Shown here: positions 31,081-35,452 of the stretch, one piece after another | Numbering within the stretch: the stretch's first letter is position 1 | Layout of the letters: every line of letters starts with the position of its first letter | Assembly: GCA_016866235.1 (NCBI GenBank) | Contig: VGMW01000001.1 | Span: forward strand, 737,731 to 801,730 | Length of the DNA stretch: 64,000 bases | From: Bacteroidota bacterium | Lineage (GTDB): Bacteria > Bacteroidota > Bacteroidia > Cytophagales > Cyclobacteriaceae | Direction of reading: 5' to 3' | Translations under genes and position numbers: made by a program | Notes under the pieces: model-generated | What the model was told of the DNA's origin: nothing | The model's database searches: none | Seen by the model: the letters and a program-made list of their open reading frames with translations, nothing else

Positions 31081-32643
31081 ATGATGCAAAGATATAATAT
31101 TCTGTGGGCCGACGATGAGATTGATCTGCTCAAGCCGCACATGCTGTTCCTGCAGCAGCGTGGCTACGACATTACGCCCGTGAACAACGGTTCCGATGCG
31201 GTTGAGCTTTGCACCACCCGTAATTTTGATGTGGTGTTTTTAGATGAACACATGCCCGGCATGTCAGGATTGGAAGCTTTGAGCTTGATCAAAAATGCCA
31301 AGCCCTCACTGCCTGTGGTTATGGTCACTAAAAATGAAGAGGAGCAGATCATGGAGGAGGCGATTGGAGCTAAAATCGATGACTATTTAATTAAGCCTGT
31401 TAACCCAACGCAGGTTCTTATTTCGGTCAAAAAAATTCTAGACAACAAGCGGTTGGTGATGGAGCATACCAATGCTTCTTATCAGCAGGAATTTCAAAGA
31501 ATCAGCCTGGCGTTTATGGGTGAGTTGTCGCACGAGCAATGGTCTGAAATGTACCGCAAGCTTATCTTTTGGGATCTGCAGATGGAATCGGCCGATAACA
31601 AAGAAATGTTGGAAGTGCTGGAAGCACAGAAGGTGGAGGCCAACCACAACTTCTGCAAGTTCGTACGGAAGAATTATGACAAATGGCTTAATGACCCTGC
31701 AGCGGAAAAGCCGTTGCTTTCTCACCAATTGATGAAAAAGAAAATTTTCCCAATGGTCAAAAAGGGTGAGCCCTTGTTTGTTTTTTTGATCGATAACCTG
31801 CGCTTTGATCAGTGGAAGGTGATTGAGCCTGCCTTGCTGGAATACTTTGTGGTGGAAGATGAAAAGACTTATTACAGTATTCTGCCTACTACGACTGCTT
31901 ATTCTAGGAATGCCATTTTCAGCGGAATGATGCCGTCGGAGATGGAGCGAACCCATCCACAACTGTGGGTAGGCGAGGATGATGAGGAAGGTAAAAACAA
32001 TTTTGAAGATGAATTTCTGCAGAAGCAAATCGCACGGGCAAATCTTAATTGCAAAGCCTCCTACCATAAAATCAAAAAACTCGAAGAAGGTAAATTTTTG
32101 GTCGACTCGTTTAACAATCTATTCACGAATGACCTGAATGTCATCGTCTACAATTTTGTGGATATGCTCTCGCATGCTCGGACCGACATGGCCATGATCC
32201 GGGAGCTTGCACCTGATGAGTCGGCTTACCGCTCCATTACCAAATCGTGGTTTTTACATTCACCACTGTGGGAGATGATGAAGATGGTTTCGGCGCGTGG
32301 TGCCAGGATGATCATCACCACCGACCATGGAACCATTCGGGTTAAAAAGCCATTCCGTATTGTCGGAGACCGAAATGTGAATTCCAACCTACGCTATAAG
32401 CAAGGTAAGAGCCTTGGATTTGAAGGCGACAAAATTATGTTCGTACCTAAGCCGGAGCGACTGTTTCTCCCAAAATCAAGTGTGACAACGGCTTTTGCAT
32501 TTGCAGTGGAGGATCAGTTTTTCGCCTATCCGAACAACTACAACTACTACGTTAACTTTTACAAGGATACTTTTCAGCATGGTGGGATTAGTATGGAGGA
32601 AATGATTGTGCCACTCATTACACTGGCTGCTAAGAAATCCTGA
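31081..32643 (+). CDS. porX: PorX, two-component response regulator with alkaline-phosphatase-superfamily domain
   Basis: A 520-residue response regulator for type IX secretion. The receiver domain (1-125) has acidic pocket DDE (11-13), phospho-acceptor Asp55 (FLDEHMPG), TKNEEE and conserved Lys in YLIKPVNP. After a helical linker, residues about 205-520 are the PglZ/alkaline phosphatase-like effector (LIDNLRFDQW, TTTAYSRNAIFSG, TTDHGTIRVKKP), known in PorX to act on nucleotides. PorX partners with histidine kinase PorY and sigma factor SigP. ATG 31081 and 31084 are both plausible. Downstream tsaE and ald follow on the same strand. Confidence 0.95.
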   Translation: MMQRYNILWADDEIDLLKPHMLFLQQRGYDITPVNNGSDAVELCTTRNFDVVFLDEHMPGMSGLEALSLIKNAKPSLPVVMVTKNEEEQIMEEAIGAKIDDYLIKPVNPTQVLISVKKILDNKRLVMEHTNASYQQEFQRISLAFMGELSHEQWSEMYRKLIFWDLQMESADNKEMLEVLEAQKVEANHNFCKFVRKNYDKWLNDPAAEKPLLSHQLMKKKIFPMVKKGEPLFVFLIDNLRFDQWKVIEPALLEYFVVEDEKTYYSILPTTTAYSRNAIFSGMMPSEMERTHPQLWVGEDDEEGKNNFEDEFLQKQIARANLNCKASYHKIKKLEEGKFLVDSFNNLFTNDLNVIVYNFVDMLSHARTDMAMIRELAPDESAYRSITKSWFLHSPLWEMMKMVSARGARMIITTDHGTIRVKKPFRIVGDRNVNSNLRYKQGKSLGFEGDKIMFVPKPERLFLPKSSVTTAFAFAVEDQFFAYPNNYNYYVNFYKDTFQHGGISMEEMIVPLITLAAKKS

Positions 32644-34395: not shown

Positions 34396-34398
34396 ACG

Positions 34399-35019
34399 TT
34401 AGCCAAGCTTTTTTATGGCTTCCTGGATTTGTTTCGCCAACTGATCTGGTGCCATGGTTCCATCAAAACGAAGAATATTTTCCGTCTGTCCTACTTTTTT
34501 AATAGCGAGTAGGTAGGTTTCTCTCACCTTTTTCAGGTTTTCGAGATTCTCATACATTTCCGTTTCGCTGCGGCTTGATTGAATACGTTGCATACTTACT
34601 TCCGGTGGGACATCAATGAAGATGTGAACATCGGGTCGAAGCAATCGTGCACTCATGGCATTGGCCTGAATCACCCAATCCATATCCATGTGAACACTGT
34701 GATAGGCGTAGGAAGATAGGTAATAACGATCGGTGATCACGCAAAAATCATTTTTCAGCTTGAGCAACATTCCATCATCTTCGTTGAGCAGATGGTCTAA
34801 CCGATCGGCAACGAAGAGTCCGGCAATCACCTTCTGATCGGCAATCTGTTTACCTGAAAAAATATCACGAATCATCTTCCCAACAGGCCGTTTTGTTGGT
34901 TCAGCAGTTCGCCATACTTTTCTGCCGGTCGATTCCATCCAGGCGGCAAGCATTTCGGCCTGCGTTGATTTTCCGCTGCCATCTATGCCCTCAAAGGCGA
35001 TAAAAAGGTTCTGATTCAT
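34399..35019 (-). CDS. tmk: Thymidylate kinase
   Basis: A 206-residue dTMP kinase that makes dTDP. P-loop FEGIDGSGKST (8-18), DRYYLSSYAYH (dTMP-binding DR[YH] motif), a RLLRPDVHIFIDVPPEVS strand and a LID region (RIQSSRSETEMYE). It converges with the ald-like gene 3 bases away and is divergent from the YKSEA-repeat gene. Confidence 0.95.
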   Translation of the reverse strand: MNQNLFIAFEGIDGSGKSTQAEMLAAWMESTGRKVWRTAEPTKRPVGKMIRDIFSGKQIADQKVIAGLFVADRLDHLLNEDDGMLLKLKNDFCVITDRYYLSSYAYHSVHMDMDWVIQANAMSARLLRPDVHIFIDVPPEVSMQRIQSSRSETEMYENLENLKKVRETYLLAIKKVGQTENILRFDGTMAPDQLAKQIQEAIKKLG

Positions 35020-35026
35020 GAGCGCT

Positions 35027-35034
35027 CAAAAATA
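35027..35034 (-). promoter_or_regulatory. -7 promoter element for tmk, very short leader
   Basis: The minus strand reads TATTTTTG, a perfect TAnnTTTG, ending 7 bases before the tmk ATG at 35019. Confidence 0.55.
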
Positions 35035-35109
35035 GATAATTTATAATCTCCCTGAGTTTTTGATGACTGCTGATTCATTTTCTGAGAGAGGAATTTTAGG
35101 TGGATTCCC

Positions 35110-35117
35110 TACCTTTG
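35110..35117 (+). promoter_or_regulatory. -7 promoter element for the YKSEA-repeat gene, very short leader
   Basis: TACCTTTG is a perfect TAnnTTTG, ending 6 bases before ATG 35124; the transcript would start at or beside the start codon. Confidence 0.55.
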
Positions 35118-35123
35118 AATGGG

Positions 35124-35441
35124 ATGAAAAATCTTTTGTTTAAAGCAGTATTGATTTTTGGTTTGCTCGCCGGTAAATCATCGGCCGCTCAGATCGTTTA
35201 CCTGACCAATTATAAAAGTGAGGCCGATAAGGTTGTGTTTGTTACCCAGTATAAATCGGAGGCTGATCTGATTGTATTTGAGACTAAATACAAAAGTGAG
35301 GCTAAGCCCTGGAGTGGTTTATGGTATTGGACCAAGTACAAATCGGAGGCCGATTGGAAGATTTACTTCACCAAATACAAATCAGAGGCTGACCTGAAAG
35401 TTTATTTTACCCGTTATAAATCAGAGGCGGGGCCGGATTAA
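35124..35441 (+). CDS. Secreted YKSEA-repeat protein, candidate septoil-knot (DUF6150) family
   Basis: A 105-residue protein: signal peptide (MKNLLFKAVLIFGLLAGKSSAA, cut near residue 22) and a mature domain of about 83 residues made of six YKSEA motifs at residues 30, 43, 56, 72, 85 and 98. The period is 13 residues, except one 16-residue unit with a PWSG insert. Each unit is a YKSEAD turn followed by a short strand such as LKVYFTK. This matches, from memory, the Bacteroidota family described as the 7_1 septoil-knot domain. Role unknown; a stable secreted or periplasmic structural/binding module is conceivable. ATG 35124 is chosen over GTG 35100 because it starts the signal peptide. Confidence 0.8.
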   Translation: MKNLLFKAVLIFGLLAGKSSAAQIVYLTNYKSEADKVVFVTQYKSEADLIVFETKYKSEAKPWSGLWYWTKYKSEADWKIYFTKYKSEADLKVYFTRYKSEAGPD

Positions 35442-35452
35442 GACTTTCTCTT

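Follow-up and report, generated by a model that had tools for sequence, protein, structure and literature searches.

Concerted change of six loops in DUF6150 repeat proteins, including a probably exported member from a Bacteroidota bacterium

Q9PR55, a protein of 89 aa, carries a 7_1 knot that was predicted (PMC9278004) and later confirmed by crystallography (PMC13352647), and P73136, which is 48% identical to Q9PR55, is predicted to carry a 5_1 knot (PMC9278004), as far as the accessible text of these papers goes. As these likely homologs are predicted with different knots, a likeness in fold to one of them would not fix the knot type of another protein. Papers on Q9PR55 were also the nearest result of our literature search for the protein family DUF6150, which found no paper naming this family. 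"Septknot", the family name used in a first-pass annotation of the DNA studied here, was returned by no family search, and no paper with this name was found.

Here we describe a DUF6150 gene in the window (i.e., the whole stretch of 64,000 nucleotides analyzed), where it is flanked by a divergent thymidylate kinase gene (tmk) and a convergent valS. The features referred to below are:

34396..35452, no strand: variable slot between ald and valS, holding tmk and the DUF6150 gene (genus comparison)
34399..35019, minus strand: thymidylate kinase gene (PF02223, by Pfam), sharing the variable slot with the DUF6150 gene
35110..35117, plus strand: TACCTTTG, a weak candidate -7 box fitting TAnnTTTG, 6 bases before the ATG
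35124..35441, plus strand: DUF6150 gene for a probably exported repeat protein of 105 aa (open reading frame and Pfam)
35124..35186, plus strand: putative N-terminal signal peptide, approx. residues 1-21 (by eye)
35211..35225, plus strand: loop copy 1, YKSEA (this and the other loops from the sequence)
35250..35264, plus strand: loop copy 2, YKSEA
35289..35303, plus strand: loop copy 3, YKSEA
35316..35330, plus strand: GLWYW stretch, residues 65-69, at the 16-residue spacing (from alignments)
35337..35351, plus strand: loop copy 4, YKSEA
35376..35390, plus strand: loop copy 5, YKSEA
35415..35429, plus strand: loop copy 6, YKSEA

The reading frame (positions 35124-35441) starts with ATG, stops with TAA and has 105 codons. 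YKSEA starts at residues 30, 43, 56, 72, 85 and 98, i.e., at spacings of 13, 13, 16, 13 and 13 residues, which agrees with the six copies at 13-residue spacing, with one of 16, described in the first-pass annotation. When the mature residues were shuffled 20,000 times, no 5-mer appeared three times or more, so the six copies are not due to chance. The annotation had also held that the repeat is under selection, with varying codons, and is no fresh DNA duplication. Codons indeed vary in the loops for Ser (AGT, TCG and TCA), Tyr (TAT and TAC) and Ala (GCC, GCT and GCG), but Lys is AAA and Glu is GAG in all six copies. No DNA tandem array was found in the gene by Tandem Repeats Finder at a score of 30, and the 39-nt repeat units are only 51-69% identical to each other, so the repeat exists at the protein level. 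Compared to the homolog at locus L019, dN was 0.21 and dS was 1.28 (three further pairs with the window gene, L001, had saturated dS, and the pair L026-L027 was left out); judged from these substitutions, the gene is under purifying selection, and the claim of selection without fresh duplication is upheld. Since relatives with 46-78% identity are found in 15 contigs and dN is far below dS, the gene is real.

The N-terminus of the protein is hydrophobic and ends in GKSSA, followed by AQ after the cleavage point, as read by eye. A signal-like N-terminus also occurs in close homologs, and the AlphaFold2 model (see below) has a low-confidence helix at residues 3-17, inside the putative signal peptide. 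The protein is thus probably exported, the signal peptide being judged by eye; its mature part has approx. 84 aa and no Cys. Within the GLWYW stretch, G65 and W67 are invariant in alignments A1 and A2, and these two residues as well as A34, A47 and A102 (in loops 1, 2 and 6) are invariant in 18 aligned sequences.

Among five relatives from the genus, three (G005, G356 and G033) have ald directly next to valS, and the two others (G009 and G364) have in this place an ORF of 240-252 aa that is distinct from the DUF6150 gene; as the five differ there, the slot that holds tmk and the DUF6150 gene is variable. The window tmk is the sole PF02223 match in its own genome. This profile matched one of 12 genus mates (G010, weakly) and, again weakly, two of six order relatives, and may therefore miss the enzymes of the group; a search with the window tmk protein, which had no positive control, matched in none of 13 genus mates. 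Upstream of the DUF6150 gene, TACCTTTG matches TAnnTTTG, which we take to be the Bacteroidota -7 box consensus. Matches to TAnnTTTG number 18 on the plus and 19 on the minus strand of the whole window, no TTG occurs upstream of TACCTTTG back to position 35061, and a promoter scan showed no sigma-70-like site. One terminator-like site lies inside the gene on the opposite strand, with 1.1 expected. Farther upstream in the window, positions 31081-32643 encode a response regulator receiver fused to a PglZ domain, ahead of tsaE and ald.

The window protein matches the Pfam DUF6150 profile (PF19647) with 59.2 bits (E = 4.2e-16; gathering cut-off, 27), residues 20-103 aligning with profile positions 6-88 of 98. 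The profile check suggested in the first-pass annotation is thus positive, and membership in DUF6150 is well supported at the sequence level. The protein also has all family features that we read from the present alignments rather than from Pfam text, i.e., six strand-loop units, an Ala conserved in the loops and a G-x-W that separates unit 3 from unit 4. The best NCBIfam match (E = 0.21) scored 12 bits where the cut-off is 80.

When contigs were scanned with the window protein, a search limited to close relatives, 15 loci with 46-78% identity were obtained, all in metagenome-assembled genomes. By title, six were from Chitinophagaceae, two each from Ignavibacteria(les), Polynucleobacter and Burkholderiaceae, and one each from Polaribacter, Spirosoma and Chryseobacterium. 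By protein search, with the window's own genome counted, DUF6150 was present in 2 of 62 genomes of the genus, the second one being G033 with a protein of another subtype (41% identity). Likewise counting the own genome, it was present in 15 of 58 relatives and in 157 of 390 sampled genomes of the order; the phylum sample had it in 17 of 296 genomes and the control genomes in 0 of 14. On these searches the family is widespread yet patchy.

Three subtypes could be told apart by eye from the sequences. In subtype A, which includes the window protein, loops end in SEA and the C-terminus is short; subtype B has SQA, NQA and other loops and a tail like AGWRN.SKKHLMY; and subtype C has diverse loops and Cys residues ahead of unit 1 and in a C-terminal FAGC. 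Four proteins (L117-L120) represent an additional subtype that lacks the N-terminal Cys and has loops like KWKAD and SYEAD. Five DUF6150-like units (KYAYEAD; 38.7 bits) with no signal peptide are encoded at L048, positions 982-1701 on the minus strand, and precede a hydrophobic stretch and an SH3_3 match slightly under the cut-off. Near-identical A-like genes with Cys were found on four contigs titled Burkholderiaceae or Polynucleobacter (L028-L031), where the sequences perhaps reflect transfer between phyla.

The most informative new fact from our sequence comparisons is that the loops of one protein resemble each other. For each position, we compared the agreement among the copies within one protein with the agreement of the same copy between proteins, using 2000 permutations. 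The first set comprised 26 A and B proteins out of 43 aligned; the remainder were 11 C-type proteins and the divergent L003, L006, L044, L045 and L046 (two proteins). Dropped before the 43-protein alignment were the near-identical L010, L029, L030 and L031, the fused L048/L050, the duplicate L049 and L033, whose frame is broken in the contig. At positions -4 to -1 (Y, K, S and E in the window protein), agreement in these 26 homologs was 0.87, 0.71, 0.84 and 0.86 within proteins and 0.55, 0.28, 0.63 and 0.42 between proteins (0 of 2000 permutations reached the within-protein value). The relation was the opposite in the strand core, where position -9 had 0.28 within and 0.69 between proteins and position -7 had 0.13 within and 0.53 between proteins.

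A replication set of 25 homologs, from the same order and including close kin of the first set (e.g., L075 and L004) and excluding L059, gave loop values of 0.85, 0.48, 0.95 and 0.82 within and 0.59, 0.25, 0.52 and 0.54 between proteins (0 of 2000 permutations for each position). As the permutation test takes no account of phylogeny, two thinned sets were also run. In 16 members at most 65% identical to each other, agreement was 0.78, 0.56, 0.86 and 0.76 within and 0.41, 0.13, 0.30 and 0.31 between proteins (0 of 2000 for each). In five proteins at most 60% identical, positions -3, -2 and -1 held (0, 0 and 1 of 2000 permutations) and position -4 was not beyond chance (246 of 2000). Strand position -6 behaved like the loop in the first 26 proteins and among the 16 members, whereas the replication set showed no concert there (agreement of 0.54 within and 0.57 between proteins); robust concert is therefore confined to the loop. 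The loop Ala is mostly conserved, with a within-protein agreement of 0.75-0.93 over the sets tested.

At least five of the six copies have the same tetrapeptide in 16 of 55 A and B proteins (the 55 left after removal of L082, which has many X; L029-L031 and L059 are still counted), and the shared versions are WKSE, YKSE, NRSE, FKSE, YASQ, YESQ, YKSQ, NQAF and SKYD. Among the C-type proteins (9 non-redundant of 11), no clear concert was seen at the four loop positions (110-409 of 2000 permutations reached the observed value). As the C-type keeps the unit spacing all the same, concert is not required by every member. Overall, the alignments show that the four loop residues tend to change jointly in the six copies and that core strand residues are copy-specific. 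This provides a first handle on function, i.e., six separate loops selected as one set.

The first-pass annotation had also put the protein forward as a candidate for a 7_1 knot. An AlphaFold2 model of the window protein, built from an alignment of 15 sequences of which four were near-identical, had a mean pLDDT of 86 (84.4-86.3 over five models), a pTM of 0.71 and a pLDDT of 90-97 in ten-residue blocks from residue 31 onward. It shows six strands, with a helical turn of three residues after each of them, at the loop. For L032, which is more diverged, the model (pLDDT 83; five models ranging from 83.4 down to 39.5) repeats this layout in five units, unit 4 having a non-helical turn. When both models were compared by Foldseek with 350,542 PDB chains, Q9PR55 chains (8iwb_F, 8iwa_A, 8jrm and 8iwa_D) took ranks 1 to 4 with either model, at E = 0.023-0.073 for the window model (next match, E = 3.5) and E = 0.069-0.57 for the L032 model (next match, E = 2.1). 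No PDB match reached E ≤ 0.001 with either model, and no match at E ≤ 10 was titled as the Brevundimonas Knotted Solenoid.

Support for the knot claim is thus partial: the leading structural matches suggest a likeness of the models to Q9PR55, whereas the E-values (0.02-0.57) and the superpositions (TM 0.21-0.38 for both models, approx. 0.5 or higher being taken as a shared global fold; rmsd 10-12 Å) speak against it, as does sequence, since Q9PR55 was unlisted at E ≤ 10 in phmmer and profile searches of PDB sequences, provided that this set includes Q9PR55. In the predicted structures, the low TM would reflect either a different global path of the chain or a slip of alignment register among near-identical units. 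If the path differs, the strand-turn units would form an ordinary ring or solenoid without a knot, and the likeness to Q9PR55 would be local only. Given the poor superposition and the missing sequence match, we consider this a serious possibility that falls a little short of an even chance; that four chains of one knotted protein head both searches, with a clear gap to the next match for the window model and a smaller one for L032, argues against it, and register slips in repeat proteins would also depress the Foldseek TM-score. A knotted chain would suit the arrangement of the units, in that three units, the 16-residue G-x-W spacing and three further units could correspond to two passes around a torus.

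As to the role of the loops, our preferred though tentative reading, which we would back at somewhat less than even confidence, is that DUF6150 proteins of the window type are exported, compact scaffolds whose six identical loops act as a multivalent binder of a repetitive extracytoplasmic ligand. In this proposal, six 13-residue units of a strand plus a short helix would make up a probably exported compact domain, with the strands forming a copy-specific core and the six loops presenting the same residues as a repeated feature. A chain knotted in some form would give a small, proteolysis-resistant scaffold; the six loops could jointly bind an envelope glycan, a polymer or a mineral; and the loop sequence would set specificity and thus change as a set upon a change of ligand. 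Alternatively, the six loops may pack together inside the molecule, the concert then being a constraint of folding or stability that involves no binding surface. The mostly conserved loop Ala, the concert of position -6 in two sets (absent in the replication set) and a model confidence that is high through the loops are consistent with such packing, but loop chemistry varies widely (WKSE, NQAF, SKYD, NRSE) and the C subtype keeps its spacing despite diverse loops. We regard packing as rather unlikely and, because the C-type keeps the unit spacing with unlike loops, lean toward binding.

Our search for a ligand, partner or conserved neighbor for the window subtype found none. Among the flanking ORFs of L019-L032, no conserved operon was recognized by eye except at L028-L031, the Polynucleobacter-like contigs, which have an upstream gene in common; from its letters, this gene is presumably miaB. 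Of the 57 neighbor ORFs (among 82 listed) that a family scan covered, 7 matched PrmA and 4 matched triosephosphate isomerase. Going by their letters, these belong to C-type loci, and in several families C-type genes (L007, L008, L009, L012, L013 and L017, at about positions 1300-1900) adjoin or separate tpiA and prmA.

If gene conversion had spread the loops, synonymous codons would match as well. We compared codon agreement with the expectation from local codon usage (samples of 397 to approx. 1000 codons at short loci) in 51 proteins, after dropping L029-L031 and L059. Loop codon agreement exceeded the expectation by a mean of 0.048 (32 of 51 proteins above; p = 0.005) and strand codon agreement by 0.002 (p = 0.78; p = 0.015 for the difference between loops and strands). 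For the first 26 proteins, at slightly different positions, the values were 0.51 observed and 0.44 expected (20 of 26 above; p = 0.004), and for the window loops 0.57 and 0.41. As synonymous codons are near chance, selection is favored over gene conversion as the keeper of loop likeness, and these sequences are best explained mainly by selection at the protein level, with some contribution from copying. That the copies owe their likeness to gene conversion or repeat slippage, with no function involved, is very improbable, for although the loop excess, a value of 0.87 against 0.49 expected in L039 and the uniform Lys and Glu codons of the window point that way, codon agreement is below expectation in two proteins with six matching loops (NQAFA in L065, 0.47 against 0.50; WKSEA in L026, 0.38 against 0.45), the strand residues of the same units are not homogenized and the window has no DNA tandem array.

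Mobile cargo and anti-phage defense were considered and rejected. A tblastn search with the window and L002 proteins, run with the BLAST low-complexity filter on (which may hurt repeats), gave no plasmid or phage match. Viral contigs scanned with one protein at a time, which would reveal only close relatives, gave no match either, the best PHROGs match had an E of 0.075, and a viral fold library gave none at E ≤ 0.001. No family in PADLOC-DB matched at E ≤ 1.

To the C subtype we assigned 52 proteins, i.e., 12 found earlier (L007-L018) and 40 hand-picked from the list of matches in the order (L085-L124). By an automatic rule, 42 of the 52 have both flanking Cys; the other ten were read by eye: L104 and L112-L114 have both Cys but no G.W anchor; the frame of L106 is cut short; L117-L120 are the additional subtype described above; and L109 has neither flanking Cys and keeps a middle Cys, which occurs as a third Cys in several C-type members. 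The placement of Cys before unit 1 and after unit 6 in these sequences fits a disulfide joining the ends. A bolder synthesis, which we consider unlikely as a whole, would make DUF6150 proteins extracytoplasmic, torus-knotted display scaffolds, with SEA or SQA loops co-selected as a multivalent surface and a C-type disulfide that closes the knot covalently and deterministically. The C subtype is a natural test of whether cells covalently close protein knots.

If DUF6150 shares the Q9PR55 fold, the family would allow a comparison of knotting over many species, given matches in 157 of 390 genomes of the order. The window protein is attractive for crystallization, as its mature form is approx. 84 aa long, Cys-free and highly repetitive. 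Within Pfam DUF6150, many higher-scoring members carry a C-terminal tail of the AGWRN.SKKHLMY type, whereas the window protein has YKSEA loops and no such tail. Q9PR55 of Ureaplasma urealyticum (PDB 8IWA, 8IWB and 8JRM) has 89 aa as compared to approx. 84 aa in the mature window chain, and shares 10-18% identity with our models in structural alignments (TM at most 0.38); P73136 is a possible relative via Q9PR55. The Knotted Solenoid of Brevundimonas, with a 3_1 knot according to the accessible part of its description (PMC13123833), is likewise a small protein of coil repeats, and a knotted one.
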